Shown here: in pieces, positions 5,143 to 61,792 of the stretch
Layout of the letters: every line of letters begins with the position of its first letter
How positions within the stretch are numbered: position 1 is the first letter of the stretch
Source: Peptoniphilaceae bacterium AM52-5BH
GTDB lineage: Bacteria; Bacillota; Clostridia; Tissierellales; Peptoniphilaceae
DNA length: 61,853 bases
Assembly (NCBI GenBank): GCA_027669155.1
Contig: JAQEDR010000013.1
Coordinates: 1-61,853 of the forward strand
Reading direction: 5' to 3'
Made by a program: the position numbers and the translations under genes
The notes under the pieces: model-generated
The model's input: only the letters and a program-made list of their open reading frames with translations
The model's database searches: none
What the model was told of the DNA's origin: nothing

Positions 5143-8100
5143 ATGACAATCACAAGAAAAAAGAAAACCATGGATGGAAATACCGCAGCAGCACACGTAT
5201 CTTATGCATTTTCTGATGTTGCAGCAATCTATCCTATTACACCATCTTCACCAATGCCTGAATTTATTGACAAGTGGGCTGCTCAAGGAAGAAAAAACCT
5301 TTTTGGAAATGAAGTATCAGTAACAGAAATGCAACACGAAGCTGGTGCTGCAGGAGCAGTTCACGGATCTTTAGCAGCTGGAGCTTTGACATCTACATAC
5401 ACAGCAAGCCAAGGATTTCTTCTAATGATTCCAGATATGTTCAAAATGGCAGGTGAGAGACTTCCTGCAGTATTCCATGTGGCAGCTCGTTCTATTTCTA
5501 CTTGTACAATCAATATGTACGGCGACCACCAAGATGTTATGGCAGGTAGACAAACAGGTTTTGCTATGCTCGCATCAGGCTCTGTTCAAGAGATTATGGA
5601 CTTATCTCCTGTTGCTCACTTAGCAGCAATTAAGGCAAGAATTCCTTTCGTTAACTTCTTTGATGGATTTAGAACAAGTCACGAGATTCAAAAAATCGAA
5701 GTTTGGGACTATGACCAATTTGAAGACATGGTTGATTATGATGCTATTGATGCCTTTAAAAACGATTCTCTATCTCCACACAGACCAACCATGCGTGGTG
5801 TATTTGAAAAGGGTGGATATTTCCAAAGAACAGAAGCACAAAACGAAGCTTATGATAGATTGCCAGCTATAGTTGAAGAATATATGGATAAGATTAATGA
5901 AAAAATAGGCACAGATTATTCATTATTCAACTACGTAGGTGATCCTGAAGCTACTGATATTATTGTGGCTATGGGTTCTGGTACAGATACTATTAACCAA
6001 ACAGTCGACAGATTAAACGAAGAAGGTAGAAAAGTGGGACTAGTTAAGGTTCATCTATATAGACCATTTTCTGCTGAACACTTATTAAAAACTATTCCAG
6101 AAACAGTTGAAAGAATTGCAGTTTTAGATAGAACAAAGGAAAAAGGATCTGTTGGAGAACCTTTATACCTAGATGTAGTAGAAGTGTTTGCTAATTCTGA
6201 CAGAAATCCAAAGATTATTGGCGGTCGTTTCGGTCTTGGACAAAAGGATACAAACCCAGCTCATATCAAGGCTGTATTTGATAATCTTGCAAGCGAAAAC
6301 CCTAAGAATCACTTCACAGTTGGTATTGACGATGATGTAATGCATACATCACTTGACGTTGATAAGAGCTTCGTAATAGATGATGGCAAGACAAACAGAT
6401 GTATCTTCTGGGGTAATGGTGGTGACGGTACTGTTGGTGCAAATAAAAACGCTATAAAGATTATAGGTGATAATACAGACATGTTTGCTCAAGGTTACTT
6501 CGACTACGATGCTAAGAAGAGTAATGGTCTAACACTATCTCACTTGCGTTTCTCACCAAACCCAATCCATGCAGCTTACCTAATAGATGAGGCAGACTTT
6601 GTATCATGCTCACCTCAAGCCTATGTTAAACAATACGAACTAACTAAAAATCTAAAAGATGGTGGAATATTCCTCCTCAATACAATTTGGAATATGGAAG
6701 AATTGGAAGAACATATGCCAGCTGCTATGAAAAAGGATATAGCAGAGAGAAATATCCAATTCTACACTGTAAATGCTTCAAAGATCGCTCTTGAAGTTGG
6801 ATTAGGCCACAGAACAAACATGGTAATCCAAACAGCCTTCTTTATCCTATCAAAAGTTCTACCAATCGATGATGCTATAAATTATCTAAAAGAATCTATC
6901 CAAGCTTCATACGGAATGAAGGGTCAAGATATTGTCGATATGAACAACAAGGCAGTTGATAGGACAAGAGAAGAATTATCAAAGGTAGAAGTTCCAGAAA
7001 GTTGGAAGAATCTTAAGGTTGAAGCAGCAGAAGATAATTCTGATGAGCCAGACTTTATTAGAAATATGGTTAAACCAATCATCAATCTTCACGAAGATGA
7101 CCTACCTGTATCAGCTTATCTACCATATGATGATGGACAATATATGGCTGGAACAAGCCAATATGAAAAGAGAGGTATAGCTCTATTTGTACCAGAATGG
7201 AAAATTGAAAATTGTATTCAATGTAACCAATGTTCATTTGTATGTCCTCACGCAACCATTAGACCATTCTTATTAGATGAAGAAGCTAAAGCAAATGCTC
7301 CAGAAGGCTTTGAAACAAAGAAGGCTATAGGTAAGGGACTAGAAGGATATGAATTTAGGATACAAGTATCTCCATATGACTGTATGGGATGTGGTAACTG
7401 TGTAGATGTATGTCCTGCTCCAACAAAGGCATTAGAGATGAAGCCAATTGATGAGCAAATAAATAAGCAAGCTGATAATTGGGAATATGCTCACAACAAA
7501 GTTGGATACAAAGATGACGAAATTGAAGCTAATAATGTGAAGAACTCACAATTCTCAAGACCTCTACTAGAATTTTCTGGAGCATGTGCAGGATGTGGAG
7601 AAACACCTTACGCTAAGCTAATCACCCAACTATATGGTGACCATCAACTTATCTCAAACGCTACAGGATGTTCATCAATCTGGGGTTCATCAGTTCCATC
7701 AATGCCATATTGTACAAACAGCAAGGGAGAAGGTCCTGCTTGGGCATCATCATTATTTGAAGATGCAGCAGAATACGGTTACGGAATGCTTTTAGCAAGC
7801 AAGGCTAACAAACTTGCCCTAGAAAATCTAATGAAGAAATTCTTAGGACTACATGTACAAAGCCCATTAAATGAAGCCTTTAATGAATGGTTAGAAAACA
7901 ACAATGATTTTGAAGCAAGTAAGAAAGCAGCAATAAAAATAGAGTCACTTTTAGGTAATGAGATCGACGATCCAGAAGCTAAGAGAATTGTTGGAAGAGT
8001 TAAGTCGCTTAAGGACTACATGGTTAAGAAGAGCCAATGGATATTCGGTGGTGACGGCTGGGCTTATGATATAGGATTTTCTGGAGTAGACCATGTTCTA

Positions 8101-8679
8101 GCAAGTGGAGAAGATATCAATATCATTGTATTTGATACAGAAGTTTACTCTAACACAGGTGGCCAATCATCAAAGGCAACACCACTTGCAGCAGTTGCTA
8201 AATTTGCGGCATCTGGTAAGAAAGTACGTAAAAAAGACCTAGGTCTAATGATGACAACATATGGATATGTATATGTTGCTCAAGTTGCTATGGGAGCAAA
8301 CCAAGCCCAAACACTTAAGGCAATCAAGGAAGCTGAGGCTTATCCAGGACCATCTCTAATCATAGCTTACGCTCCATGTATCAACCACGGTATCAAGGCA
8401 GGAATGGGTAAGACTCAAAGAAGAGAAAAAGAAGCAGTTGCTTCAGGTTACTGGCATCTATGGAGATTCAATCCACTTCTAGCTACAGAAGGAAAGAATC
8501 CATTCATCCTAGATTCAAAAGATCCAGAAGAATCCTTCCAGGAATTCCTTCAAGGTGAAGTTCGTTATGCATCACTTAAGAAGGCTTTCCCTGAAAGTGC
8601 AGACCAACTATATGCAGAAGCTGAAGAAGCAGCACGTGAAAGACTAGAATCTTACAAGAAAATGGCTCAAGGAAAATAA
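5143..8679 (+). CDS. nifJ: pyruvate:ferredoxin (flavodoxin) oxidoreductase, copy 1
   Basis: A 1178-residue single-chain PFOR that converts a 2-oxoacid plus CoA to acyl-CoA, CO2 and reduced ferredoxin. The N-terminal TPP/pyrimidine-binding domain contains YPITPSSPMPE. A central 2x[4Fe-4S] module has CIQCNQCSFVCP (about 691) and CMGCGNCVDVCP (about 747). The proximal cluster begins with CAGCGETPY (about 815), and the pyrophosphate-binding TPP region has GGDGWAYDIGF (about 966) and SNTGGQSSK. All motifs are intact. Threonine deaminase starts 11 bp downstream, so 2-oxobutyrate may be a physiological substrate of this copy. A second PFOR lies at 28889-32416; the two proteins are clearly paralogous but diverged throughout. 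Confidence 0.96.
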   Translation: MTITRKKKTMDGNTAAAHVSYAFSDVAAIYPITPSSPMPEFIDKWAAQGRKNLFGNEVSVTEMQHEAGAAGAVHGSLAAGALTSTYTASQGFLLMIPDMFKMAGERLPAVFHVAARSISTCTINMYGDHQDVMAGRQTGFAMLASGSVQEIMDLSPVAHLAAIKARIPFVNFFDGFRTSHEIQKIEVWDYDQFEDMVDYDAIDAFKNDSLSPHRPTMRGVFEKGGYFQRTEAQNEAYDRLPAIVEEYMDKINEKIGTDYSLFNYVGDPEATDIIVAMGSGTDTINQTVDRLNEEGRKVGLVKVHLYRPFSAEHLLKTIPETVERIAVLDRTKEKGSVGEPLYLDVVEVFANSDRNPKIIGGRFGLGQKDTNPAHIKAVFDNLASENPKNHFTVGIDDDVMHTSLDVDKSFVIDDGKTNRCIFWGNGGDGTVGANKNAIKIIGDNTDMFAQGYFDYDAKKSNGLTLSHLRFSPNPIHAAYLIDEADFVSCSPQAYVKQYELTKNLKDGGIFLLNTIWNMEELEEHMPAAMKKDIAERNIQFYTVNASKIALEVGLGHRTNMVIQTAFFILSKVLPIDDAINYLKESIQASYGMKGQDIVDMNNKAVDRTREELSKVEVPESWKNLKVEAAEDNSDEPDFIRNMVKPIINLHEDDLPVSAYLPYDDGQYMAGTSQYEKRGIALFVPEWKIENCIQCNQCSFVCPHATIRPFLLDEEAKANAPEGFETKKAIGKGLEGYEFRIQVSPYDCMGCGNCVDVCPAPTKALEMKPIDEQINKQADNWEYAHNKVGYKDDEIEANNVKNSQFSRPLLEFSGACAGCGETPYAKLITQLYGDHQLISNATGCSSIWGSSVPSMPYCTNSKGEGPAWASSLFEDAAEYGYGMLLASKANKLALENLMKKFLGLHVQSPLNEAFNEWLENNNDFEASKKAAIKIESLLGNEIDDPEAKRIVGRVKSLKDYMVKKSQWIFGGDGWAYDIGFSGVDHVLASGEDINIIVFDTEVYSNTGGQSSKATPLAAVAKFAASGKKVRKKDLGLMMTTYGYVYVAQVAMGANQAQTLKAIKEAEAYPGPSLIIAYAPCINHGIKAGMGKTQRREKEAVASGYWHLWRFNPLLATEGKNPFILDSKDPEESFQEFLQGEVRYASLKKAFPESADQLYAEAEEAARERLESYKKMAQGK

Positions 8680-10044: not shown

Positions 10045-10929
10045 ATGTCAGATTATATTATTAGTTCTGAATCTATAATGGATTTATCCGCCGACTATGT
10101 GAAAGAGCTCGGCATTAGTTTTATAAAATCAAATTACGAACTTAATGGAGAAATATACTTAGATGATTTTGGTCAAAGCTTAGATATGGAGGAATTCTAT
10201 AGAAATATGGAAGAAGGTGCAACTCCAAGCACAGCTGCCATTAACACCCAAGCTTATTTAGACTATTTTGAAGAGCTCCTACAGAAGGATATGGATATTA
10301 TCCATGTTTGCCTATCTTCAGGTCTATCGACACAATATTCATGCCTTATACAAGCAATTGATGTCCTTAAGGAGAAATATCCTGAAAGGAAAATTTACCC
10401 TATAGATTCAAAGATGGCTTCATCTGGGGTTGGTCTTCTTGTAGATAAACTCGTAAGTCTTAAAAAAGAAGGGATGAGTATCGAAGATCTATATGAATGG
10501 GCAGAGAAAAACACACTTCATGTTATAAGTTATACTAGCAACGAAAACTTGGAATATGTCGCAAGAGGTGGAAGGATATCAAAAACTGCTGCAAACATTG
10601 GAAATCTCCTAAAAATTTGTCCTCTAATAGAGATTGATGATCAAGGCCATATGCAGGTAACTCAAAAAATCAGGACAAAGAAAAAACTTCTCAAGAACTT
10701 AGTTGATAGGATGGAGAAAAACGCTGTTGGTGGTGTAAATTACAATGACAAATTATTCATAAGTCATGCGAGCAATGAAGATACAGCCATTGAATTAAAG
10801 GAGATGATGGCAGATAGGTTTAAAGAAATTTCTGCTATAGATATATTTGAAATTGGTCCTACAATAGGTAGCCACATTGGTCCGGGAACTATTACAATGT
10901 TTTATTGGGGAGAAAAAAGATTAGGATAA
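10045..10929 (+). CDS. DegV family fatty-acid-binding protein (FakB-like), copy 1
   Basis: A 294-residue DegV protein. Characterised members (FakB) bind a single fatty acid and present it to the kinase FakA for phosphorylation. Family features include TPSTAAINTQAYLDYFE (about 72-88), the CLSSGLSTQY loop (about 101-110), ARGGRISKTAA (about 176-186) and the C-terminal GPTIGSHIGPGT with its conserved histidine. A GGAGG site precedes the ATG. A paralogue lies at 13666-14559 and a FakA homologue at 32924-34492, which supports a FakAB system. Which fatty acids each copy prefers cannot be read. Confidence 0.88.
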   Translation: MSDYIISSESIMDLSADYVKELGISFIKSNYELNGEIYLDDFGQSLDMEEFYRNMEEGATPSTAAINTQAYLDYFEELLQKDMDIIHVCLSSGLSTQYSCLIQAIDVLKEKYPERKIYPIDSKMASSGVGLLVDKLVSLKKEGMSIEDLYEWAEKNTLHVISYTSNENLEYVARGGRISKTAANIGNLLKICPLIEIDDQGHMQVTQKIRTKKKLLKNLVDRMEKNAVGGVNYNDKLFISHASNEDTAIELKEMMADRFKEISAIDIFEIGPTIGSHIGPGTITMFYWGEKRLG

Positions 10930-13585: not shown

Positions 13586-13665
13586 AATCGGTAAGCCAGA
13601 TAGAATTAAATAAAAAAACTTATATAATACTATAAGTATATTATAGAATGAAAAGAGAGGTTTGT

Positions 13666-14559
13666 ATGACACATGCTAGCTATGTAATTAGCGCAACATC
13701 TTCTGTCGATATTAGCGAAGAACTCTTTGAAAGGTTAGATGTGAAATGGATTCCCTTCCATTATCAGATAGACGGAAGAGATTTTTTAGATGATTTGGGA
13801 GAAAGTATAAGTCTTAGCGACTTTTATGAAAAAATGATCGCAGGTTCTTACTCAACTACCAGCCAAATAAATGTTTTTGAATATCTTAATTATTTTGAAC
13901 AATTCCTAGAAAAAGGCAAGGATATAATCCATCTTTGCTTATCTTCAGGAATAACTGGGGAATATAATAATGCACTAATAGCAAAAGATGAGCTTTTGGG
14001 AAAATACCCTGAAAGAAAAATCTTTGTGCTAGATTCACTTAATGCTTCGGCTGCCCAATTTTTGTTAGTTAAAGAAATGGCGAAAATGCGAGACCAAGAA
14101 AAAAGTATTGAAGAAATCAATGACTGGGTGATAAATAATAGAGATAGGGTAAATGGTTGGTTTTTAAGCTCAGATCTAACCTATTATATTAGGGGTGGCA
14201 GGATATCCAAGACTAAGGGAGCTGTTGGCAATGCTTTAAATATCTGTCCGGTTATGGAAGTTAACAGATTTGGTGAGCTAATAGTAAGAGAAAAGGTAAG
14301 GACTAAAAAGCGTGCCGTCAAGGTCCTTCTAAAGAAGATGGCGACTTTAGCAGACGATGGTAAAGATTATGATAAGGAATGTTTGATTATCCATTCACAT
14401 GACTATGAAGGAGCTATTGGCCTTAAGGAAAAAGTTTTAGAAAGTTTCCCTAAGATAAAAAAGGATATTGAAATTTATCAATTTGGAACTATAATAGGAA
14501 GTCATACGGGACCTGGAACCTTGGCCCTAGTATTTTGGGGTGAAGAAAAGGGAAGATAG
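13666..14559 (+). CDS. DegV family fatty-acid-binding protein (FakB-like), copy 2
   Basis: A 297-residue paralogue of the DegV protein at 10045. I place the start at 13666 because AGAGAGG lies 5 nt upstream and the protein then aligns with the N-terminus of copy 1 (SYVISATSS against DYIISSESI); an in-frame ATG at 13648 has no ribosome binding site. Family marks are SQINVFEYLNYFE, CLSSGITGEY, IRGGRISKTKG and GTIIGSHTGPGT. It probably carries fatty acids to FakA (32924-34492). trmB follows 12 bp later and probably shares its transcript. Confidence 0.87.
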   Translation: MTHASYVISATSSVDISEELFERLDVKWIPFHYQIDGRDFLDDLGESISLSDFYEKMIAGSYSTTSQINVFEYLNYFEQFLEKGKDIIHLCLSSGITGEYNNALIAKDELLGKYPERKIFVLDSLNASAAQFLLVKEMAKMRDQEKSIEEINDWVINNRDRVNGWFLSSDLTYYIRGGRISKTKGAVGNALNICPVMEVNRFGELIVREKVRTKKRAVKVLLKKMATLADDGKDYDKECLIIHSHDYEGAIGLKEKVLESFPKIKKDIEIYQFGTIIGSHTGPGTLALVFWGEEKGR

Positions 14560-28888: not shown

Positions 28889-31800
28889 ATGACAGTTAAA
28901 AGAGCTATGAAGACTATGGATGGTAACACAGCAGCAGCTCACGTATCATATGCGTTCACTGATGTTGCAACAATCTATCCTATCACACCTTCATCACCAA
29001 TGCCAGAAGCAGTAGATGTTTGGGCTGCTAACGGTAGAAAAAATATTTTTGGTAGACCAGTTCAAGTAAAAGAAATGCAATCTGAAGCAGGTGCTGCAGG
29101 AGCAGTTCACGGAGCATTAGCAGCAGGAGCACTAACTACTACATATACTGCAAGTCAAGGATTATTACTAATGATCCCTAACATGTACAAAATTGCAGGT
29201 GAAAGATTACCAGGTGTATTCCACGTTGCAGCAAGAACACTTGCAACACACGCACTTTCAATCTATGGTGACCACTCAGACGTAATGGCAGCAAGACAAA
29301 CAGGTTTTGCAATGCTTTGTGCTTCTTCAGTTCAAGAAGTTATGGACTTAGGACCAGTTGCTCACTTATCAGCAATCAAAGGAAGCATTCCATTCGTAAA
29401 CTTCTTCGACGGATTTAGAACAAGTCACGAAATTCAAAAAATCCAAGTTTGGGACTACAAAGACCTAGCTCCACTTGTTGATATGGAAGCTGTAAATAGA
29501 TTTAAAAACAATTCACTAAACCCAGAAAGACCAAAGACAATTGGTACAGCTGAAAAGAACATCTTCTTCCAAAGAATGGAATCAAGCAACAATGCTTATG
29601 AAGATATCGTTGGTATAGCTGAAGATTACATGCACCAAATCAATGAATTAATTGGTACAAACTACGAATTATTCAACTACTATGGTGCAGATGATGCAGA
29701 AGAAATCATCGTAGCAATGGGTTCTGTTTGCCAAGCAGCAGAAGAAACAATAGATACCCTACTAGCTGAAGGCAAAAAAGTAGGTATGATTGAAGTTCAT
29801 CTATTTAGACCATTCTCAAAAGAACACTTACTAAAAGCAATTCCAAAAACAGTTAAGAAAATTGCTGTTCTTGATAGAACAAAAGAAAAAGGATCAATCG
29901 GTGAGCCACTACTACTAGATGTTAAATCTGCTTACTATGATCAAAAAGATAAACCACTTATCATCGGTGGTAGATATGGTCTTTCATCAAAAGATACAGT
30001 TCCAGCTGATATCGAAGCAGTATTTGAAAATCTTGCTAAAGATGAACCAAAAGAAGACTTCACAATCTCTATCAACGATGATGTAACACACAAATCACTT
30101 GAAAGAACAGATCTTAAGATTAGACAAGAAGGTACAACTAGATGTAAATTCTGGGGATTCGGATCTGACGGAACTGTTGGCGCTAACAAACAAGCTATCA
30201 AGATTATCGGTGATAACACAGACATGTACGCACAAGGTTACTTTGACTATGACTCAAAGAAATCAGGTGGTCTAACAGTTTCTCACTTAAGATTTGGTAA
30301 AGACCCAATCAGATCAACATACCTACTTGATGAAGCTGACTTTATGTCTTGCTCAAAGGTAGCTTATGTAAACCAGTATGACCTACTAAAAGGCCTTAAA
30401 GACGGTGGTAAATTCTTACTAAACTGTGCATGGACAGATGAAGAATTAGAAGAACACTTACCAGCAAATATGAAACGCTATATTGCAGAACATAACGTAG
30501 AATTCTACACAATTGATGCTTCTCACTTAGCTGCTCAAATTGGTCTAGGTTCTAGAACAAACATGATCATGCAATCTGCATTCTTCAAACTAGCTGACGT
30601 AATTCCATTAGAAGATGCCGTTAAATTCCTAAAAGACTCTATCGTTAAATCATATGGTCACAAGGGTGATGACATTGTAAACATGAACTACAAGGCAGTT
30701 GATAGCGGAATTGACGCAATCCACAAAGTAGAAGTACCAGAAGCTTGGAAAGACGCTGTTGATGAAAAGAAAGAAGAAAGAGAACTTCCAGAATTCATCA
30801 GAGAAATTGTTAAACCAATGCTTGAACAAAAAGAAGACGACATCCCAGTATCAGCATTCGTTGGTAGAGAAGATGGAGCATTCGAATCAGGTACAACACA
30901 ATACGAAAAGAGAGGTATCGCTCTTAACGTTCCAGAATGGCAACTTGAAAACTGTATCCAATGTAACCAATGTTCATACGTTTGTCCTCACGCAGTAATC
31001 AGACCTTTCTTAGTAACAGAAGAAGAAAAGGCAAACGCACCAGAAGGCTTTGAAACTAAAAAAGCTATTGGTAAGGGCATGGAAGGATACGAATTTAGAA
31101 TTCAAGTTTCTCCATTAGACTGTACTGGATGTGGTAACTGTGCAGACGTATGTCCAGCTCCAGAAAAAGCTCTTCTAATGAAACCATTCGAAGATGAAGT
31201 TGAAAAAGAAAAAGACAATTGGTACTACGCTCATGAAGAAGTTGGATACAAAGAAGATGTTATGGATCCAATGACTCTAAAGGGCAGCCAATTCAAACAA
31301 CCATTACTTGAGTTCTCAGGTGCTTGTGCAGGTTGTGGTGAAACACCATACGCTAAACTTGTAACACAACTATTTGGTGATAGAATGTACATTGCAAATG
31401 CTACAGGATGTTCATCAATCTGGGGAGCAAGTGCACCAGCTATGTCTTACACAAAGAACTCTTGTGGACAAGGCCCAGCTTGGGGTAACTCATTATTCGA
31501 AGATGCAGCTGAATACGGTTATGGTATGAAACTTGCAGCAGATGCTAACAAGTCATTACTTGAAACATACATGAACAACTTCTTAGAACTTGGTCTTGAT
31601 ACACCATTTAACGAAGCATTCAAAGCTTGGTTAGAAGGAAAAGAAACTGTTAATACTTCTAAGGAAGCAACAGCTAAGATCATGAAACTAAAAGAAGAAA
31701 CAGTAGACAGCGAAGAAGGTAAAGACCTACTAGATAAGATTTTCCAACTAAAAGATTACATGATTAAGAAATCAATCTGGATCTTTGGTGGTGACGGATG

Positions 31801-32416
31801 GAGCTACGATATCGGATTCGGTGGAGTTGACCACGTACTTGCTAGTGGTGAAGACATCAACATCCTTGTGTTCGATACAGAAGTTTACTCTAACACAGGT
31901 GGACAATCTTCTAAAGCTACACCATTATCTGCAGTAGCACAATTTGCTGCCGCTGGTAAGAAAGTAAGAAAGAAAGACCTTGGCCTAATGATGACTTCCT
32001 ACGGTTATGTATACTGTGCACAAGTAGCTATGGGTGCTAACCAAAACCAAACACTTAAAGCTCTTAAAGAAGCTGAAAGCTACAATGGTCCATCACTAGT
32101 TATAGCTTATGCACCATGTATCAACCACGGTATTAGAATCGGTATGGGTAAATCACAATACAGAGAAAAACAAGCTGTAGATGCTGGTTACTGGCACTTA
32201 TGGAGATTTGACCCAAGACTTGCAGACGAGGGCAAAAATCCATTCCAACTTGATTCTAGAGAACCAAAAGAATCATTCCAAGAATTTATTCAAGGTGAAG
32301 TAAGATACTCATCACTTAAGAGATCCTTCCCTGAAACAGCTGATGAACTATATGCTGAAGCAGAAAAAGCTGCTAAAGAAAGATATGAAACATACAAGAG
32401 ATTAGCTGGAAAATAA
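28889..32416 (+). CDS. nifJ: pyruvate:ferredoxin (flavodoxin) oxidoreductase, copy 2
   Basis: A 1175-residue PFOR with the same domain order as copy 1: YPITPSSPMPE near the N-terminus, CIQCNQCSYVCP (about 689), CTGCGNCADVCP (about 745), CAGCGETPY (about 813), GGDGWSYDIGF (about 967) and SNTGGQSSK. It stands alone between a near-consensus promoter and its own terminator, and its codon choice looks strongly restricted (mostly GAA, AAA, CCA, GGT), as expected for an abundant protein. I infer that it is the main housekeeping PFOR, with copy 1 tied to threonine breakdown. The two copies differ at many positions, so this is not an assembly duplication. Confidence 0.96.
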   Translation: MTVKRAMKTMDGNTAAAHVSYAFTDVATIYPITPSSPMPEAVDVWAANGRKNIFGRPVQVKEMQSEAGAAGAVHGALAAGALTTTYTASQGLLLMIPNMYKIAGERLPGVFHVAARTLATHALSIYGDHSDVMAARQTGFAMLCASSVQEVMDLGPVAHLSAIKGSIPFVNFFDGFRTSHEIQKIQVWDYKDLAPLVDMEAVNRFKNNSLNPERPKTIGTAEKNIFFQRMESSNNAYEDIVGIAEDYMHQINELIGTNYELFNYYGADDAEEIIVAMGSVCQAAEETIDTLLAEGKKVGMIEVHLFRPFSKEHLLKAIPKTVKKIAVLDRTKEKGSIGEPLLLDVKSAYYDQKDKPLIIGGRYGLSSKDTVPADIEAVFENLAKDEPKEDFTISINDDVTHKSLERTDLKIRQEGTTRCKFWGFGSDGTVGANKQAIKIIGDNTDMYAQGYFDYDSKKSGGLTVSHLRFGKDPIRSTYLLDEADFMSCSKVAYVNQYDLLKGLKDGGKFLLNCAWTDEELEEHLPANMKRYIAEHNVEFYTIDASHLAAQIGLGSRTNMIMQSAFFKLADVIPLEDAVKFLKDSIVKSYGHKGDDIVNMNYKAVDSGIDAIHKVEVPEAWKDAVDEKKEERELPEFIREIVKPMLEQKEDDIPVSAFVGREDGAFESGTTQYEKRGIALNVPEWQLENCIQCNQCSYVCPHAVIRPFLVTEEEKANAPEGFETKKAIGKGMEGYEFRIQVSPLDCTGCGNCADVCPAPEKALLMKPFEDEVEKEKDNWYYAHEEVGYKEDVMDPMTLKGSQFKQPLLEFSGACAGCGETPYAKLVTQLFGDRMYIANATGCSSIWGASAPAMSYTKNSCGQGPAWGNSLFEDAAEYGYGMKLAADANKSLLETYMNNFLELGLDTPFNEAFKAWLEGKETVNTSKEATAKIMKLKEETVDSEEGKDLLDKIFQLKDYMIKKSIWIFGGDGWSYDIGFGGVDHVLASGEDINILVFDTEVYSNTGGQSSKATPLSAVAQFAAAGKKVRKKDLGLMMTSYGYVYCAQVAMGANQNQTLKALKEAESYNGPSLVIAYAPCINHGIRIGMGKSQYREKQAVDAGYWHLWRFDPRLADEGKNPFQLDSREPKESFQEFIQGEVRYSSLKRSFPETADELYAEAEKAAKERYETYKRLAGK

Positions 32417-53457: not shown

Positions 53458-53486
53458 TTTTAAATGATTTATGCAAGTGTTAGAAT
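53458..53486 (+). promoter_or_regulatory. putative promoter of the V-ATPase operon
   Basis: Extended -10 TGTTAGAAT (TAGAAT at 53481-53486) with a weak -35 (TTTTAA) at 17 bp. Confidence 0.35.
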
Positions 53487-53514
53487 TGATATGTATCAAA
53501 AGAAAGAGGTTGTT

Positions 53515-54495
53515 ATGAGAGATGTGACTGTAAAAGTAAAAGCAAAAATGGGAAAGCTACCCAGTGACGATCTCTATAATAAATTAATTCATGAGAGCAA
53601 TTTGGAAAGAAAAATAGGATTATTGAAAAATCATTATGATTTTCTAGATGAATCGGTAAGTAAAAAAGAAGTCGAATTAAATTTGTTTAGAAATTTCTAC
53701 GATGAATTAAAAAGTTTAGATTTTTTTCTAGAAGGTATTGAGAGTGAGTTCTTTAAAGAATATTTCAGTATTTATGAGATATATCTTATTCAAGAAGTTA
53801 TACAATGCATACTAAACAATACTTTGGAGAAAAATATTTTAAATTTAAAGCAAAATCCATTTTCTAAAGATTTAAAAATCAATGTTGACGATTCATTAGA
53901 AGAATTTATAGAAGGGCTTAGAGATAGTAAGTATTACAGAACTCTTTTGCCCTTTATAAATGAAAATATGGATAAGGAATCATTGATATTTTTGTCAAGC
54001 AATGCTTTGATGAAATTTTATTTTAGAAATCTTCTGAAATTAGCTAAAAAGTTTAAGGCAAAAGAGAAAGTCCTTATAGAAAATTTTGTAGGTGAGTTAA
54101 TCAATTTGTCTAACCTAGAGATGCTTTATAGACTAAAGAAATTCTTCAATTTAAACAATAATGAGATATTTAATTATTTGATTGATGGAGGTAAGGGCTA
54201 TAATGCTGATAAGTTAAAGATGGTATCTAACTTGTCTATGGATGATTTCTTTGAATACCTCAACGGTACTAAGTACAAAGATATTTTTGATAATGCGTGG
54301 GATTCACATATTAGAATTATGAGAAAGAAGATGAAACTTTACAGAGATGAAATAATCAAAGAAAGATCAACTATCCTCTATGTAATATCTGCTATGAGTA
54401 TAATCCACACCAATATGGAGAATCTAGTTAGTATATTAGAGGTTGATGAGAGCTTTACTCTTTCTGAAAGATATGAACTAGTGATTGTGAGGTAA
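53515..54495 (+). CDS. ntpC: V/A-type ATPase subunit C (AC39/NtpC, central stalk cap)
   Basis: A 326-residue subunit C, the funnel-shaped cap joining the central stalk to the membrane rotor. I choose the ATG at 53515 because AAAGAGG lies 5 nt upstream and the protein then begins with VKVKAKMGKLPSDDLYNKLI, matching the conserved family N-terminus; an in-frame ATG at 53464 would add 17 unrelated residues. Typical marks follow: NLEMLYRLKKFFNLNNNEIF (about 201-220), LIDGGKGY, and TMENL-like residues near the C-terminus. It is the first gene of the operon, whereas Enterococcus-type operons begin with the small stalk subunit and subunit I. Confidence 0.82.
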   Translation: MRDVTVKVKAKMGKLPSDDLYNKLIHESNLERKIGLLKNHYDFLDESVSKKEVELNLFRNFYDELKSLDFFLEGIESEFFKEYFSIYEIYLIQEVIQCILNNTLEKNILNLKQNPFSKDLKINVDDSLEEFIEGLRDSKYYRTLLPFINENMDKESLIFLSSNALMKFYFRNLLKLAKKFKAKEKVLIENFVGELINLSNLEMLYRLKKFFNLNNNEIFNYLIDGGKGYNADKLKMVSNLSMDDFFEYLNGTKYKDIFDNAWDSHIRIMRKKMKLYRDEIIKERSTILYVISAMSIIHTNMENLVSILEVDESFTLSERYELVIVR

Positions 54496-54497
54496 TT

Positions 54498-55382
54498 ATG
54501 GCAGTTGAAAAAATGCACCTTGTCAATATTACTTCTAGGTTAAATAATCTCGACGATTTTCTAGAAGATATTATTGAATTAGGCGATATTGAACCAGTTG
54601 ATGCATTTAATCAAGTAGCATCAAGAGCTTTCTCAATTAAGGCTAGTAAAGAAAATGTTGAATTGACTGAAGATATTTCAACTATATCGAGCTTTGAAAG
54701 GCCAAATAAATCTATTATAGATAAGTTGAATTTGCTAAAAGACTTGTTTAAAATAGATTCTTCAGGAATTAAAAGAAGCAAACATATTTCTGAAAACGAA
54801 ATTGACAGTTTATACGACGACTTGAACGCATTAATTGATAAGAAAAATAAATTAATAGAAGAAAAAAATCTTCTTCAAGAGTATAAGGATAATTTGGAAG
54901 TCCTTGACAGATATGGAATAGATGTAGCAAAGATTAAAAATCTCAACTACTTTGATCATAGGTTCGGTGAAGTAAGCAAGGATGGTAGATATATACTAAA
55001 GAATAACTACGATAACTTGCCTTCATTGATTCTTCACCTAGATGGTAGTCTTGATGATATGTCTTTAGGATATCTTGATGAACTTATAGCCCTTGATAAG
55101 GAAACAAGTAAATTAAGAACTGACACAGACAATATTATATCTAATGAGAAAGCTAATACATTTAATGTAATAAGCGCGTTGGATAAGAAGTATTCCTCAT
55201 TAACTAAAAATAAGTCTGATGAAGTTTACTCAAATATCCTATCTGAGGGCGAGTTAAGGAAAAATGAGATAGAAAAAGAGTATAAACAAATGAAAGATAA
55301 GCTCGATAGAATCTATGAAAACCATAGCGAAGACATAGTTTCTGAGATTAGCTCATCTATTTTAGAGGAAGGGACTAAATAA
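54498..55382 (+). CDS. ntpI: V/A-type ATPase subunit I, N-terminal piece with coiled-coil insertion
   Basis: A 294-residue protein. Residues 1-187 match the cytosolic N-terminal part of subunit I/a: MAVEKMHLVNI start, coiled coil at about 100-135, and NLNYFDHRFGEVSKDG near 148-163. Residues 188-294 are unlike subunit I: about 107 residues, highly charged and helical (EIEKEYKQMKDKLDRIYENH near 257-276), of the size and style of peripheral-stalk subunit G/H. The frame ends in TAA and the next reading frame continues subunit I from the very next codon, a TTG, in the same frame. Alternatives are a nonsense mutation, readthrough, or a natural two-piece subunit. Confidence 0.7.
   Translation: MAVEKMHLVNITSRLNNLDDFLEDIIELGDIEPVDAFNQVASRAFSIKASKENVELTEDISTISSFERPNKSIIDKLNLLKDLFKIDSSGIKRSKHISENEIDSLYDDLNALIDKKNKLIEEKNLLQEYKDNLEVLDRYGIDVAKIKNLNYFDHRFGEVSKDGRYILKNNYDNLPSLILHLDGSLDDMSLGYLDELIALDKETSKLRTDTDNIISNEKANTFNVISALDKKYSSLTKNKSDEVYSNILSEGELRKNEIEKEYKQMKDKLDRIYENHSEDIVSEISSSILEEGTK
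55059..55379 (+). other. inserted coiled-coil segment, candidate stalk subunit G/H domain
   Basis: Codons 188-294 of the preceding entry. The segment begins with an ATG but has no convincing ribosome binding site. Standard subunit I would need only a few residues between the strand ending LILHLDG and the strand ENYLLVYP of the next reading frame. No separate G/H-type gene is present in the operon. Identity as G/H is inferred from size, composition and absence elsewhere, not from a recognised motif. Confidence 0.45.
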
Positions 55383-56759
55383 TTGGCAAATAAGAAAAAA
55401 AATAAAAATATTGACAGCAAAGAGAATTATTTGTTAGTTTATCCTAATCAAGTTAAAGAAGATATCAAAAGAGCTGTCAATACAATGGGTTTTATAGATA
55501 AAAAGACTCCAGAGTCTGATGATCTGGAAACTGTTGATAGAAAATTAGAAGAAACTAACAAGGAAATTAAAGAACTAGAAGAAAAAATCGAAGCTATCAA
55601 AAATCGAAATAAAGAAGTCATAGAAGATATTCCATATTCTATCGACTACTACGAAAAAAGTGGCGAGATTAAAGATAAGATGGCAAAAGGGGACAAGTAC
55701 TTCTACCTTAGCGGTTGGGTTCCTGAATCAAAAGTCGATGACTTCAAAGAACTTGAAGAAAAATACGACAAAACTAAGGTAAATATAAACAAAAGGAGCT
55801 ATTCCTCGAAACCGCCGACCAAACTAAAGAACAATATTCTCTTTCGTCCTTTTGAGTTTTTGGTGAACATGTATGGAGCACCAAACTACAACGAGATTGA
55901 CCCAACACCATTTTTTGCTATAACATATTTATTGTTATATGGAATGATGTTCGGTGACTTAGGACAAGGCTTAGTATTTGTTTTGTTAAGCTTCTATGTA
56001 GATAAGATAAATAAGACCTTTGGTGGTCTAGTAAGAAGAATTGGAATAAGTTCTTCTATATTTGGATTGATGTACGGATCATTTTTCGGAATAGAAACAT
56101 TGATTCCTACCTTATTGATCAAGCCTTTTGATAATATCATGACAGTACTTATTGCATCAGTTGCATTCGGTGTATTATTGATGGTCATATCTTATATCAT
56201 TGGAATTTTCAACAAAGTCAAAAAACAAAATAATATAGAAGAAGGAATATTTGGCAAAGAAGGCCTAGCAGGTCTTATGATGATGATATCTTTTATACTA
56301 ATTATTCTTAATATAGTAGGAAAGAATCCACTTCCAATGCCTGTTGCTATAGTTATGCTTGTATTATCAATAGTTATGATAATATTTAAACAGCCACTAG
56401 CAAGAAGGATTGAGGGAGATTATCCACTATACGATAGTTCCAAGGGAGACTATTATGTAGAAAGTTCATTTTCAATAGTAGAAGCTCTGCTATCAGTATT
56501 TTCTAACTTAGTATCTTTTACTAGAGTTGGGGCTTTCGCAATCAACCACGTTGGCTTATATATGGCTTTTGAAGTCATGGCAAAGCTTGCTGGTGGTGGA
56601 ATAATTGGAATAATCATTCTAATCTTAGGTAACATTCTAATAATTGGACTTGAAGGAATGATAGTATTCATCCAAGGACTCAGACTAGAATTTTACGAGA
56701 TGTTTAGCAAGTATTATGAAGGAAATGGTCGTAAGTTTAGACCAATTAGAGAAAAATAA
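55383..56759 (+). CDS. ntpI: V/A-type ATPase subunit I, C-terminal membrane piece
   Basis: A 458-residue protein starting at TTG, directly after the TAA of the N-terminal piece and in the same frame; GGAAGGGA lies about 9 nt upstream and could serve initiation. It supplies the rest of subunit I: ENYLLVYPNQVKEDI (about 14-28), a second coiled coil (about 55-80), the FYLSGWVPESK turn (about 105-115), then PTKLKNN...PFEFLVNMYG and GMMFGDLGQGL. Seven or eight membrane helices follow, with the proton-channel region FTRVGAFAINHVGLYMAF near 378-395. The membrane motor half appears intact, so the pair may assemble into a working stator. Confidence 0.85.
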   Translation: MANKKKNKNIDSKENYLLVYPNQVKEDIKRAVNTMGFIDKKTPESDDLETVDRKLEETNKEIKELEEKIEAIKNRNKEVIEDIPYSIDYYEKSGEIKDKMAKGDKYFYLSGWVPESKVDDFKELEEKYDKTKVNINKRSYSSKPPTKLKNNILFRPFEFLVNMYGAPNYNEIDPTPFFAITYLLLYGMMFGDLGQGLVFVLLSFYVDKINKTFGGLVRRIGISSSIFGLMYGSFFGIETLIPTLLIKPFDNIMTVLIASVAFGVLLMVISYIIGIFNKVKKQNNIEEGIFGKEGLAGLMMMISFILIILNIVGKNPLPMPVAIVMLVLSIVMIIFKQPLARRIEGDYPLYDSSKGDYYVESSFSIVEALLSVFSNLVSFTRVGAFAINHVGLYMAFEVMAKLAGGGIIGIIILILGNILIIGLEGMIVFIQGLRLEFYEMFSKYYEGNGRKFRPIREK

Positions 56760-56768
56760 GGAGTTAAT

Positions 56769-57197
56769 ATGATTTTAAAAATTGCTTTATTAGCATTAGC
56801 TGTTGTCGTAATGACAATTTATTCAGGTTTATATCTATTAAAAACAAACGAAGATAGTTCAAAGGCAAAGATAAGAAAGGCACTAAAACTTAACTTATCT
56901 ACATTCGTACCAATAATGGTAATGATGATAGTGCTTCTTTTCCCATCAAGCTCAAGAGCAGCAGAAGCTGGTACTAGTGCAGCAGCAAGTGATGGATTAA
57001 AATACATCGGTGCAGCCCTTTCAACAGGACTTGCTACAATTGGTACAGGATATGCAGTAGGTACTGTTGGTTCAGCAGCGCTTGGAGCAATCTCAGAAGA
57101 CCAATCTATCCTTGGTAGAACAATCATCTTCGTAGGTCTTGCAGAAGGTATTGCAATCTTCGGTGTAATTATCTCAATCTTAATCCTATACGCGTAA
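56769..57197 (+). CDS. ntpK: V/A-type ATPase subunit K (rotor-ring proteolipid)
   Basis: A 142-residue proteolipid. Two N-terminal hydrophobic helices (about 2-22 and 45-61) precede SSSRAAEAGTSAA, which resembles a signal-peptide cleavage region. The rest (about 75-142) is a single c-type hairpin with the Gly-rich ATIGTGYAVGTVGSAALGAI helix, the ISED loop, and the ion-binding glutamate in GLAEGIAIFG (near 126). This resembles the single-hairpin, signal-bearing subunit of Thermus more than the 156-residue two-hairpin NtpK of Enterococcus. The Gln and Ser/Thr residues typical of Na+ sites are not seen, so proton coupling is more likely, by inference. Confidence 0.87.
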   Translation: MILKIALLALAVVVMTIYSGLYLLKTNEDSSKAKIRKALKLNLSTFVPIMVMMIVLLFPSSSRAAEAGTSAAASDGLKYIGAALSTGLATIGTGYAVGTVGSAALGAISEDQSILGRTIIFVGLAEGIAIFGVIISILILYA

Positions 57198-57198
57198 A

Positions 57199-57438
57199 AT
57201 GAAGGCAAAATTAATAAGTAATGATCCAAGCTTAAACCTTATGTTTAGGCTTGGAGGCATAGAAATAGAGCAGGTAGATAGAATCGAAGAAAGTCTTGAT
57301 AAGTTTAAGACTTCTGTGAAGGATGATAATCTAGCTGTTCTTATCTTAAGCAGAACAATTTATAATCATATATCCAAGGATGTTGATTATTATAGAGAAA
57401 ATCAGAGTGAGCCTTTAATCGTAGTTATTGATGGTTGA
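57199..57438 (+). CDS. ntpG: V/A-type ATPase subunit F (central stalk)
   Basis: A 79-residue protein with the position and pattern of subunit F: an N-terminal strand, FRLGGIEIEQVD (about 16-27), and a central LAVLILSRTIYNHI (about 45-58) in the Rossmann-like core, ending in PLIVVIDG. It is short compared with the usual 100-odd residues because the C-terminal helix that contacts D and the A3B3 head is missing. The start follows the K stop by one base. The E gene begins just after its stop. Confidence 0.75.
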   Translation: MKAKLISNDPSLNLMFRLGGIEIEQVDRIEESLDKFKTSVKDDNLAVLILSRTIYNHISKDVDYYRENQSEPLIVVIDG

Positions 57439-57449
57439 TTGGAGGAAAT

Positions 57450-58055
57450 ATGCTAGACCTAGAAGCAAAAATTTCATCCTTTAGAAAGATGGTTTGGGAT
57501 GAAGAGAAAGAAAAAAGTGAGAAAGAATTATATCAGTCTACAGAGGATAATTCAAAGCTAGTTTCAGATAAAAAAACTGAGCTTGAAAAAAACTTAGAAG
57601 ATAGTGTCAAGGATAGACAAATATTCGCAGAGATGAGAAAAAACGAGAATGTATCTAAGAAAGAATTTGAATCTAAGAATGATATATTTCTCTATAGACA
57701 ATCTTTACTAGAAGATTTAACAAAAAGAATAAAAGAAAATCTCAAAGATTTTACTAATACTAATGACTACAAAGACAAGCTAAGTTCTATGATAAATAAT
57801 TCATTAAAAGAGCTTGACCTAAGTAAGGAAGAAGTAATAGTTAGTGTTTTGGAAAAAGATAAGAATCTTATAGATTTTCCTAATGTGGAAATAATCGACG
57901 ATGAATACATCGGTGGTTTCATAATTTCAAATCTTGATAGAGATTTTAGATATAATTATACTTATTTGAATAGACTTAAAGATAAAAAATATGAAGTTGG
58001 TAAGAAACTAAATCAACTTCTTGAAAGTGAGAGTTTTAATGAATCCAAAAATTAA
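57450..58055 (+). CDS. ntpE: V/A-type ATPase subunit E (peripheral stalk)
   Basis: A 201-residue subunit E: a long N-terminal coiled coil (about 1-110), then a mixed alpha/beta C-terminal head (EVIVSVLEKDKNLIDFP..DDEYIGGFIISNLD, about 132-168) that binds the top of subunits A/B. The start is the ATG at 57450 with GGAGG 5 nt upstream; an in-frame TTG at 57435 would include that site. E normally pairs with G/H, which is missing as a separate gene. Its last 17 nt overlap subunit A. Confidence 0.85.
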   Translation: MLDLEAKISSFRKMVWDEEKEKSEKELYQSTEDNSKLVSDKKTELEKNLEDSVKDRQIFAEMRKNENVSKKEFESKNDIFLYRQSLLEDLTKRIKENLKDFTNTNDYKDKLSSMINNSLKELDLSKEEVIVSVLEKDKNLIDFPNVEIIDDEYIGGFIISNLDRDFRYNYTYLNRLKDKKYEVGKKLNQLLESESFNESKN

Positions 58056-59787
58056 AACAATAAACGGTCCTGTTGTAATTGCGCGAGATGCAAAAATCTT
58101 GACAGTTCGTGAGATGGTTTCAGTTGGTAAGCTAAAGCTTATAGGTGAAGTAATTTCACTTGAAGGTGATCTTGCGACAATCCAAGTATACGAAGATACT
58201 TCAGGACTTAAAGTAAATGAAGATATAATTCCAACAGGCAGACCCCTTTCAGTAAGACTTGGTCCAGGAATGCTTGGGAACATGTTTGATGGTATCCAAA
58301 GACCCCTAAAGAATATTATGGACAAAAACGGTGCCTTTATCCCTTCAGGAATAGGTTTTGAAAACTTAGATACTGAGAAAAAATGGGATGTCAAACTTAG
58401 AGTTAAAGTCGGAGATAAAGTTAATAGGGGCGATATCTACGCTACTATAAAAGAAACTGAAACAATTGAGCATAGACTTATGACTCAAGTTAGTGGTGAG
58501 ATTATAGAAGTTGTTGAAGACGGTGCCTATACACTTGAGGATACAGTTGTTAAGATTAAGACAGAAAAAAGTGTAGTGGAGGAGAAACTCTACCAATACT
58601 GGCCAGTTAGAAATCAAAGACCAGTTACGGCTAATATGCCAATAGAGAAGCTATTTGAGACAGGACAAAGAGTCCTAGATGTATTCTTTCCTCTTGCTAA
58701 GGGTGGTACAGTTGCCATCCCTGGTGGATTTGGTACAGGTAAGACTATGCTTCAACACCAGCTTGCCCAATATTCTGACGTAGATATAATAATTTATATT
58801 GGATGTGGAGAGCGTGGAAACGAGATGACCCAGGTTCTTGAGGAGTTCCCTGATCTTATAGATCCAAACACAGGTAAGGGACTTATGGAAAGGACTATCT
58901 TGATTGCTAACACTTCAAACATGCCGGTAGCAGCTAGAGAAGCATCTATCTATACTGGTATTACTATGGCTGAATACTTTAGAGACATGGGTTATGATGT
59001 AGCTCTTATGGCAGACTCATCATCCAGATGGGCAGAAGCCTTACGTGAAATATCAGGAAGACTTGAAGAGATTCCAGCTGAAGAAGGCTATCCAGCATAC
59101 CTAGGATCCAGACTTTCACAATTTTACGAGAGAGCAGGGTATTTTAAGAACTTAAATGGAAGTGAGGGTTCTGTTACTCTTATCGGTGCTGTTTCTCCTT
59201 CAGGAGGAGATTTCTCAGAGCCAGTAACTGAAAATACAAGAAGATGTGTAAATGTATTCTTAGGACTTGATAGAAAGCTTGCTTATTCAAGACACTATCC
59301 AGCTATAAACTGGCTTTCTTCTTATTCTAATTATATTGAAAAAATCAGAGCCTACTATGAGGAAAGACTGGGTAAGGACATCATTAGTATAAGAAATGAA
59401 TTGATGAATGTCCTTCTTGAAGAGGATGAAGTTAGATCTATCATGATGCTAGTGGGTGAAGATGCACTTTCTAATAGTCAAAAGAACATATTAGATGTTT
59501 CAGGTCTTATAAGAAATGGCTTCTTACAACAAAATGCTTACAATGATATTGATAAGTATGTTCCACTTGAAAAACAAGTCAAGATGCTCGACATTATTTA
59601 TAATTATTATCAAAAGAGTAAAGCAGCTATTAGTGGTGGTCTTAGCCATAAGGATATATATGATTCAAATCTAATTAATGAGATTACTCAAATGAAATAT
59701 AATATAAAAAATGATGAGTTGGATAAGTTTATTGATCTTAATTCAAAGATAAACAATCATTTTGTAAGTGTGAAGGAAGGTTTATAG
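58039..59787 (+). CDS. ntpA: V/A-type ATPase catalytic subunit A
   Basis: A 582-residue catalytic subunit. It starts [18 protein letters not shown] at an ATG inside subunit E; the earlier in-frame TTG (58021) is not needed. The non-homologous bulge domain is at about 110-185, Walker A at about 228-240 ([14 protein letters not shown]), [14 protein letters not shown] with the catalytic glutamate at about 255-268, and [16 protein letters not shown] at about 328-343. All catalytic motifs are intact. The ribosome binding site is weak (GTGAGAG), consistent with coupling. Confidence 0.96.
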
Positions 59788-61152
59788 ATGAGAAAAGAAT
59801 ATACTAAGATTAGAAAAATTGAATCATCTATGATTGAGATAGAAAAAGTTACAGATGTAGCCTACAAGGCAGTAGTATCTGTTCACGCTTTGGGGATGGA
59901 CTTTGTAGGTCAAGTTGTAAAAATCGATGAGGACACTGTAACTATAGAAGTTTTCGGTAATACAGAAGAGTTTTCATTAAATGACATAGTGGTGAGTTTT
60001 CATGAAAAACCTTTAGAGATTCCTCTCGATGAATCAATACTTGGTAGGAGCTTTAACGGAATAGGAGAACCAATAGATAATGGAGGAGATATCTACTCTG
60101 ATGATAAATATTCAGTAGAGGGACTTCCCCTAAATCCTGTAGCACGTGAATACCCAAGGGACTTCATCCAAACAGGAATATCTTCTATTGATACTCTAAC
60201 AACCCTTATCCGTGGACAAAAGCTACCGATATTTTCTGGATCTGGTCTTTCACACAACGAGATTGCAGCTCAAATTGTAAGACAAGCTAAGCTTAAGACA
60301 GATGAGAACTTCTGCTTTGTTTTTGCTGCTATGGGGATTAAGAAAGACGAAGCCATGTTCTTCGAGGATGCCTTCAACAAGGCAGGTGTTCGTGATAAGG
60401 TTGTAATGTATCAAAACCTTGCGGATTCTCCAATAATGGAAAGACTTGTTGCTCCAAAATGTGCCCTAACAGCAGCTGAATATCTAGCTTACAAGAAGGG
60501 CTATCACGTACTTGTTATAGTCACTGATATGACATCTTATTCAGAAGCCCTACGTGAAGTTTCATCTATAAGGGGAGAGGTTCCTTCAAGGAAGGGCTAT
60601 CCTGGATATCTTTACTCAGATCTTGCTTCTTTATATGAAAGAGCTGGCATGATTGAAGGAGTTAAGGGATCTGTAACTCTTATTCCAATACTTACCATGC
60701 CTAATGATGATATCACCCACCCTGTGGCAGACCTTACAGGTTATATAACAGAGGGTCAAATTGTAATCGATAGATCTCTGTCTAATAAGGGAATCTATCC
60801 TCCAATAAATGTACTTCCTTCCTTGTCAAGACTTATGAAGGATGGTATAGGTGAGGGCTATACAAGGGCTGACCACGAAGATCTAATGAACCAACTTTAT
60901 GAATCGTATTCTAAAGTCCAAGATGTTAGAAATATTTCTCAAATTGTTGGTGAAGATGATTTGTCTGATGTTGACAAGAAATATTTACGTTTCGGAGATG
61001 AATTTGAAAGAAGATTCTTAGCCCAAGATAAGGATGAAAATAGGGAACTCGATGAATCTCTAGATTTAGGTTGGAAAATTCTTAAAATCCTTCCAAGAAA
61101 TGAGCTTCACAGAGTTTCTAAAGAGAATCTAGATAAGTTTATAGGTGAATAG
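59788..61152 (+). CDS. ntpB: V/A-type ATPase regulatory subunit B
   Basis: A 454-residue non-catalytic subunit alternating with A in the hexamer. It lacks Walker A and has instead [21 protein letters not shown] (about 142-162). [29 protein letters not shown] (about 248-276) is the conserved arginine-finger region. Length and sequence are typical. It starts the base after the subunit A stop. Confidence 0.96.
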
Positions 61153-61153
61153 T

Positions 61154-61792
61154 ATGCAAACAAACAATGTTGCAGCTACAAAGGCCAATCTAATCAAGGC
61201 AAAAGAAGAACTAAATCTCTTAGAGGGTGGATACGACATACTCGATAAGAAGAGAAAGGCCTTGATTGGAGCTTATGATTCCAAGATAAAAGAACGTAAT
61301 GATTTAAATGAAAAGGTAAATGAGACGATCAAAAAGGTCAGCCATGATTTCAAAAAAGTCTTGGTAAGCATTGGTGAATCGGATCTTGATTCCATATCGA
61401 AAACTGTCCCAATAGATAATAGTATTAGCTTAAAAGTTGATAAGTTCATGCAGACAGAAATATCTGAAATTCACTTCGAAGATGTAAAGCTTAACTTATC
61501 CTATTCATTCTATGAAACTAATGCTGGTTTTGATGAGGCTATACTTTCTTTTAATCAATTAAGATCTAAGATATTTAAGCTTGCTGAGCTCGATACTACA
61601 ATTAATTCTTTAGATAGAGAAATTAAAAAGACGAGCAAGAAAGTAAATAGTTTGGATAAGGTTCAAATTCCAAAATACAAGGAAATGATTAAGACCATAT
61701 CTCAAAGCATAGAGGAAAAGGAAAGAGAAGAATTCTCTAAGACTAAGATTGTCAAAGAAAATAAAATCAAAAAAGAAGAATCCAAAAAATAG
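61154..61792 (+). CDS. ntpD: V/A-type ATPase subunit D (central rotor shaft)
   Basis: A 212-residue subunit D. The N-terminal NVAATKANLIKAKEELNLLEGGYDIL helix and the C-terminal helix (DREIKKTSKKVNSLDKVQIPKYKEMIKTI, about 155-183) form the antiparallel coiled-coil shaft; the NSLDKVQIPKY motif is diagnostic. The ATG at 61154 follows the subunit B stop by 1 nt and has AGGTGA upstream; a GTG at 61145 is less likely. The gene is complete, with a lysine-rich tail. Confidence 0.93.
   Translation: MQTNNVAATKANLIKAKEELNLLEGGYDILDKKRKALIGAYDSKIKERNDLNEKVNETIKKVSHDFKKVLVSIGESDLDSISKTVPIDNSISLKVDKFMQTEISEIHFEDVKLNLSYSFYETNAGFDEAILSFNQLRSKIFKLAELDTTINSLDREIKKTSKKVNSLDKVQIPKYKEMIKTISQSIEEKEREEFSKTKIVKENKIKKEESKK

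Follow-up and report, generated by a model that had tools for sequence, protein, structure and literature searches.

A predicted peripheral-stalk subunit G joined to the first part of a two-piece subunit I in an Anaerococcus V/A-type ATPase operon

In the V/A-ATPase of Thermus thermophilus (6QUM), subunit G is free and two EG stalks stand at different sites of a one-chain subunit a, as described in the accessible part of PMC5758568. According to the same part of that report, the N-terminal tips of the EG stalks bind different sites of the subunit a arm, with EG1 at the arm tip, and the regions where stalk and arm join are highly flexible. The Na+ V-ATPase of Enterococcus hirae (8WCI), which has the closest solved subunit I by sequence to the one studied here (E 2.9e-56), likewise has a separate G and a one-chain subunit I, of 672 residues, in the accessible part of PMC10382590. 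A stalk subunit joined to a stator subunit is found in the b-delta fusion of the mycobacterial F-ATP synthase, which also has a duplicated domain; that enzyme is F-type, however, with b joined to delta on the head and, as far as the accessible part of PMC8617483 goes, the membrane stator subunit uninvolved, and we do not count the two systems as relatives. Here we analyse the V/A-type ATPase operon at 53464-61792 of a window, by which we mean the whole 61,853-nucleotide stretch of contig JAQEDR010000013.1 (assembly GCA_027669155.1, Peptoniphilaceae bacterium AM52-5BH). Its subunit I is encoded by two open reading frames (ORFs), I-N and I-C, and I-N ends in a tail that we predict to be stalk subunit G. 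The source is an Anaerococcus close to A. marasmi, with I-C identity of 96% to A. marasmi and 95% to an Anaerococcus metagenome-assembled genome (MAG). In our judgement a V/A-ATPase stator in which G is attached to the N-terminal portion of a subunit I encoded in two pieces, as it reads from sequence, is a new arrangement; in the literature searched, with most subscription journals outside its coverage, neither titles nor abstracts mentioned an I-G fusion or a split subunit I.

The type-2 operon of sister Peptoniphilaceae (for example locus L075, whose G matches a Peptoniphilus equinus protein exactly) has the same gene order and a homologous G, and over the corresponding region its full-length subunit I mostly shares 41-50% identity with I-C. 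It differs in its one-chain subunit I, of 641-663 residues in 62 loci, and in its separate G upstream of C. In these sister genera, which belong to the same family outside the clade with a split subunit I, the order, read as far as A, is G-C-I-K-F-E-A with the separate ORF just before C, and more distant Clostridia MAGs likewise combine a separate ORF before C with a one-chain I. The separate ORF has 82-142 residues as listed, mostly 102-118. We assign it to subunit G because the window has every other subunit and because the first gene of the classical operon in those genomes is also H-like. In the window the order is C, I-N, I-C, K, F, E, A, B, D, all on the + strand, and subunit C (AC39; 53464..54495, PF01992 E 2.9e-30) has no G ORF upstream, in contrast to the separate G found directly upstream of C in the sister operons. 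The remark in the first-pass annotation that this operon lacks a separate G/H gene was borne out: C, I, K, F, E, A, B and D make a full set with G excepted as a separate gene, and no leftover + strand ORF of at least 60 residues was found within the operon or between miaB and C.

I-N occupies 54498-55382 (294 residues, TAA stop at 55380-55382). Residues 1-187 (54498..55058) align to the N-terminus of full-length subunit I up to about residue 186 and form the first half of the cytoplasmic arm, namely the first lobe, the outgoing helix and the first half of the outer lobe (model elements 6-180). Residues 188-294 and the stop (55059..55382) make up the candidate G/H-like stalk subunit, assigned from profiles, operon survey, repeat and model, with two long helices predicted. 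An ATG at 55059 is codon 188 of this ORF, and I-C begins with a TTG at 55383 in the same frame. Given that I-N stops and I-C restarts directly behind it, the G-like segment forms a C-terminal tail on the first ORF of the pair and is not internal to one chain. The first-pass annotation had placed it inside subunit I; it does sit between strands that are normally adjacent, but it ends I-N and is not enclosed in one polypeptide. Alignment with six relatives puts the insertion point between a strand ending LILHLD and a strand starting ENYLLVYP, neighbouring strands in unsplit subunit I that are separated there by a hairpin turn only. The early estimate of about 107 extra codons plus a short linker at this site was accurate, as the insert has about 110 codons, including the 107-codon tail, the stop and a lysine-rich I-C start of 13 codons with its TTG (55383..55421), which unsplit subunit I lacks in the alignment.

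I-C (55383..56759, 458 residues) carries the second arm half and the membrane domain and is recognised as subunit I (PF01496 E 5.3e-26; NF004430 E 3.1e-57). A Shine-Dalgarno-like sequence for I-C, AGAGGAAGGG, was read within the end of the G tail at 55364..55373, and the equivalent start of locus L001 has 5/6 matches to AGGAGG upstream. I-N itself gave nothing solid in Pfam or NCBIfam (best NF004435, E 0.009), and the named database records among its relatives read "hypothetical protein". A structure model, for which I-N and I-C were joined artificially as one chain and which was also used for the fold searches, has the arm and membrane-domain fold expected of a V-ATPase subunit I. The ion-path arginine expected of subunit I is Arg381 of I-C (AGA, 56523..56525), where SFTRVGAF aligns with SYTRLMAL of 8wci_P; this residue is aligned with Arg573 of E. 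hirae subunit a, numbered by counting from the 8wci_P alignment, and the role of R573 in the ion path is given in the accessible part of PMC10382590.

Judged by sequence comparison, the tail is homologous end to end to the gene of about 105 residues that heads the sister operons. A profile of 58 separate G ORFs, in which no I-N was used, matched the tail in 25/25 I-N proteins at 37.3-64.1 bits, from model position 2-7 to 101-105 and over equal lengths on both sides, whereas the remaining parts of the same proteins reached at most 3.2 bits as a control. The 58 ORFs were drawn from 62 loci with a separate-G candidate, omitting four loci with two candidates, and the 25 I-N proteins leave out L021 (truncated I-N), L023 and L025 (I-C broken), in whose I-N frames the G match was also found, weakly in L021 (E 0.005). 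Subunit I reading frames are broken in the assemblies of all three. Profile-profile comparison of tail and separate G with hhalign gave a probability of 99.0 and E 6.4e-18 over 105 columns, with a score of 98.1 against 17.5 for the reversed profile and a mean of 10.0 (maximum 16.5) in 60 column shuffles. The tail keeps the length of separate G and ends where separate G ends. A protein search with the G profile returned near relatives only. Sets were hand-picked for spread: 38 of 62 separate G candidates (A3), 22 of 26 tails including the window (A4), 65 rows (A5) and 41 rows (A6).

The whole I-N profile, run over 130 genomes of the family, found matches in 83, as a single stretch of at least 288 residues in 33, cut by a contig end in one and not as one stretch in 49. 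In 48 of these 49 genomes the first part of I-N lay within the subunit I frame, sometimes extending past residue 186, and in 28 the tail part lay in a separate ORF of 103-191 residues (27 with both parts, one with the separate ORF only); genome G126 has stops within its fused match, and the separate part in G055 is aligned across stops. Among 94 operons read, 28 had only the fusion, 64 only the separate gene, two were cut and none had both. Fused and separate G are mutually exclusive in the 92 readable operons, with one G per operon. The profile behind this count includes 38 of the 64 separate ORFs among its own members. In the split-clade genomes the best match of the separate-G profile was the I-N tail in 19/19 (E 9.4e-11 to 2.1e-16; next best E 0.0038), these 19 being part of the 33 with a fused I-N. 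In these operons the tail stands in for the separate gene. The G/H identity first proposed for the segment gains support from its score of 98.1 with separate G, from the mutual exclusion, and from the way the I-N profile splits onto two genes in 27 relatives, with a 28th showing the separate gene only.

The separate gene of the sister operons is predicted to be subunit G and a remote homologue of canonical H/G. A pooled profile of separate G and tails matched 32 canonical H sequences with a probability of 90.1 and E 1.6e-6 over 105 colinear columns; the score was 37.8, against a maximum of 14.0 in 40 shuffles and 22.5 when reversed, and tails alone scored 28.3 against 13.5 reversed. An earlier comparison of separate G with three canonical H sequences had given 21.0 against shuffles of up to 20.0 and improved with 32. 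Tails, separate G and canonical H share a peak of averaged hydrophobicity at 97.5 degrees per residue, which 0/500 shuffles reached in each set, and a larger canonical H set has the same peak. This value is near the 11-residue repeat (98.2) and away from the 7-residue repeat (102.9), so the tail shows the right-handed hydrophobic repeat of about 11 residues expected of G/H; a right-handed hendecad/quindecad pattern in E and G is described in the accessible part of PMC6131620. The first 105 residues of subunit E peak at 95.5-96 (reached by 10 and 1 of 500 shuffles), and two arm helices of subunit I at 107.5 (16/500) and 102 (0/500).

Several results weigh against this assignment. Separate G alone scored 30.5 with canonical H, close to its reversed score of 25.1 (shuffle maximum 12.3), and for this reason it is the pooled profile, the position and the repeat that carry the connection to canonical H. 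Nothing among the curated Pfam and NCBIfam models, including those for G/H, matched the tail over cut-off, and separate G had no strong match to the curated G/H models, the best G/H values being E 6e-4 to 0.02. Its matches were weak and scattered among the 38 members examined: KxDL in 7 and V-ATPase_G in 6 for Pfam, and for NCBIfam V-type H in 6, F-type b and FliH in 5 each and V-type G in 4. NF006256 had a match above cut-off in 0/130 family genomes, the canonical H of the second operon discussed below also falling under it. A PDB search with the separate-G profile put apolipoprotein A-I first (E 6e-4), ahead of V-ATPase G at E 0.095-0.22; in our view this lead is a composition effect of amphipathic helices. 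Confidence in the modelled tail was also low, with a predicted local distance difference test score of 47-74 in blocks of ten residues. The profile check suggested at first pass for residues 188-294 came out divided, as the separate-G profile matches the tail and the curated G/H models stay below cut-off.

A further point on the same side is a second operon with a distant H in relatives, which could be another source of H. An H-like frame of 108 residues was present in 8/8 Anaerococcus genomes searched (L035-L042; E 0.0025 to 6e-8) and heads a classical second V-ATPase operon in 5/5 layouts read, out of eight regions; this operon was read protein by protein in A. tetradius only, where genes were named from size and sequence. 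The first-pass annotation had named a G/H gene elsewhere in the genome as grounds for dropping its proposal. Such genes do occur in these relatives, but we do not take them as a refutation, because the operon-2 H is part of a separate operon and differs greatly in sequence from type-2 G. It was not among the type-2 G profile matches up to E 0.1 in the 19 split-clade genomes. Since sister genomes hold a separate type-2 G beside a canonical H (for example G020, G025, G088, G092, G108 and G114), each operon type keeps its own G/H. The H-like genes, together with the lack of a curated G/H match in the tail, would suit a view of the tail as a lineage-specific coiled-coil arm extension unrelated to G, with the operon-2 H as the real G. 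We consider this improbable: the tail matches over its full length a separate gene whose place it takes, its repeat is the 97.5-degree one seen in G/H, which the arm helices do not share, and sister genomes carry type-2 G in addition to canonical H.

In the explanation we hold to be highly probable, the tail, being homologous to the separate predicted G, works as a stalk subunit rooted covalently in the tip of a two-piece subunit I arm. I-N and I-C would fold together as a normal arm. The G tail would have its N-terminus at the arm, as in free G, and would form a right-handed coiled coil with subunit E that reaches up to the A/B head, so that the tail-E stalk would hold the head still against rotor torque. 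The stalk is then likely to be anchored covalently to the membrane machine and not merely docked, one flexible stalk-arm contact having become a covalent link and the stalk a part of the arm. Such an enzyme would be a natural experiment in how the stalk-arm joint must behave, in how one arm serves two stalks, and in how the gene of one subunit can divide another subunit with nothing lost. With this assignment, a gene labelled in named Peptoniphilaceae records as hypothetical protein or, once, ATPase acquires a likely identity.

The two window ORFs share a frame and are parted by one TAA, and three assemblies carry further broken frames, as would be seen if the subunit I gene were decaying or an in-frame stop or assembly error had been recorded. 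The end of I-N is nevertheless at a common position in 27/28 clade loci, the exception being L021, and the likely I-C start falls between 11 nucleotides ahead of and 102 nucleotides past the last base of the I-N stop, with each of the three relative frames represented (25 split loci). No single intact fused ORF across the junction was found among the 28 loci. The ratio of nonsynonymous to synonymous substitution rates (dN/dS), for the window against four relatives, was 0.09-0.16 in I-N residues 1-187 and 0.04-0.06 in I-C; in the tail it was 0.08-0.11 in two of the four pairs, with dS saturated in the other two. We rejected decay or a frame break, to which we give almost no credence, on the conserved split position, the changing frames and the low dN/dS throughout. 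At least 5/6 AGGAGG matches stand upstream of some I-C start in 20/25 split loci, a count made without a chance control.

The ATG at codon 188 raises the possibility that initiation inside I-N, where the tail begins, still yields free G. We rejected this as very improbable: ATG, GTG or TTG is absent near the tail start in 7/15 loci checked (L010, L014, L016, L019, L022, L027 and L087), and where a start exists the best upstream site has 4/6 AGGAGG matches.

On a membrane-domain tree the split loci group as a single clade (100/100; 30 rows, among them L088, which is cut at its start), so the loci are related, not independent, and the split counts as one event. The simplest history, we infer, is a single insertion of a whole G ORF, from start to stop, into the I gene in an ancestor of the Anaerococcus clade. 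Because such an ORF would enter in frame at its 5' end and bring its own stop, it would produce fusion and split at once.

Given that G is part of I-N, two stalks would require two copies of I-N, a free G from elsewhere, or the loss of one stalk. V/A-ATPases have two E/G stalks and one subunit I, and for this reason splitting I might, less surely, allow two I-N::G copies per I-C. In 8/25 split loci (L008, L012, L013, L014, L017, L026, L027 and L087) I-C reaches 585-687 residues through a tandem duplication of its arm half, and the copies are 37-46% identical in the four compared. No second copy occurs in the other 69 loci, of which 65 have one and four none, some being cut or broken. The doubled copies group by lineage, L087 standing apart from a seven-species clade around A. 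octavius, which makes at least two doublings the simplest reading; the fork near L087 is open on the tree, and the two copies of L017 group together. Arm copy 1 is constrained, but less so than the membrane domain (dN/dS 0.16-0.34 against 0.04-0.08, three pairs). In a read-through model of the A. nagyae locus L013 arm copy 2 has its strands in place, whereas copy 1 lacks its first strand, at low confidence there; this fits a missing second I-N but also a poor prediction, and neither proves nor excludes two I-N per I-C.

The doubled arm half hints at two I-N::G per complex. Both stalks could then be covalently rooted, two I-N::G joining one I-C and, in some species, the tandem second arm half docking the second I-N::G; we put this forward tentatively, and if true it would give a rotary motor with two two-piece arms, each growing its own stalk. 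Of comparable, limited likelihood is a stator, asymmetric or with one stalk, in which fused G serves one stalk only and the other uses the operon-2 H or is absent. Each split genome has one match to the whole I-N profile, 17/25 split loci have a single arm half in I-C, and in T. thermophilus two EG stalks stand on one subunit a (PMC5758568, accessible part), all of which suit this arrangement. The operon-2 H is a possible partner for the second stalk, though it is far from type-2 G; its score with the tails is 28.3, where separate G reaches 98.1, and this distance makes a partner swap doubtful.

Downstream of I-C lie subunit K of the rotor ring (56769..57197, PF00137 E 9.9e-16), subunit F (57199..57438, PF01990 E 1.2e-10), and subunit E, the expected coiled-coil partner of G (57435..58055, PF01991 E 3.3e-10). 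They are followed by the catalytic subunit A (58021..59787, ORF as listed; named from sequence, 731-891 bits against sister operons as query), subunit B (59788..61152, named from sequence and place) and subunit D (61145..61792, PF01813 E 3.1e-42). Subunit F has 79 residues and is without the C-terminal part that most relatives have. It has 76-81 residues in 23/25 split-clade ORFs, the other two being listed at 91 and 99, and in the sister operons mostly about 102, with 9 of 42 sister ORFs found also short at 80-83 residues. Elsewhere in the window, a DegV-like ORF pair lies close together at 10045-10929 and 13648-14559, and two full-length pyruvate:ferredoxin oxidoreductase-like ORFs of 1178 and 1175 residues are present at 5143-8679 and 28889-32416, all named from sequence.
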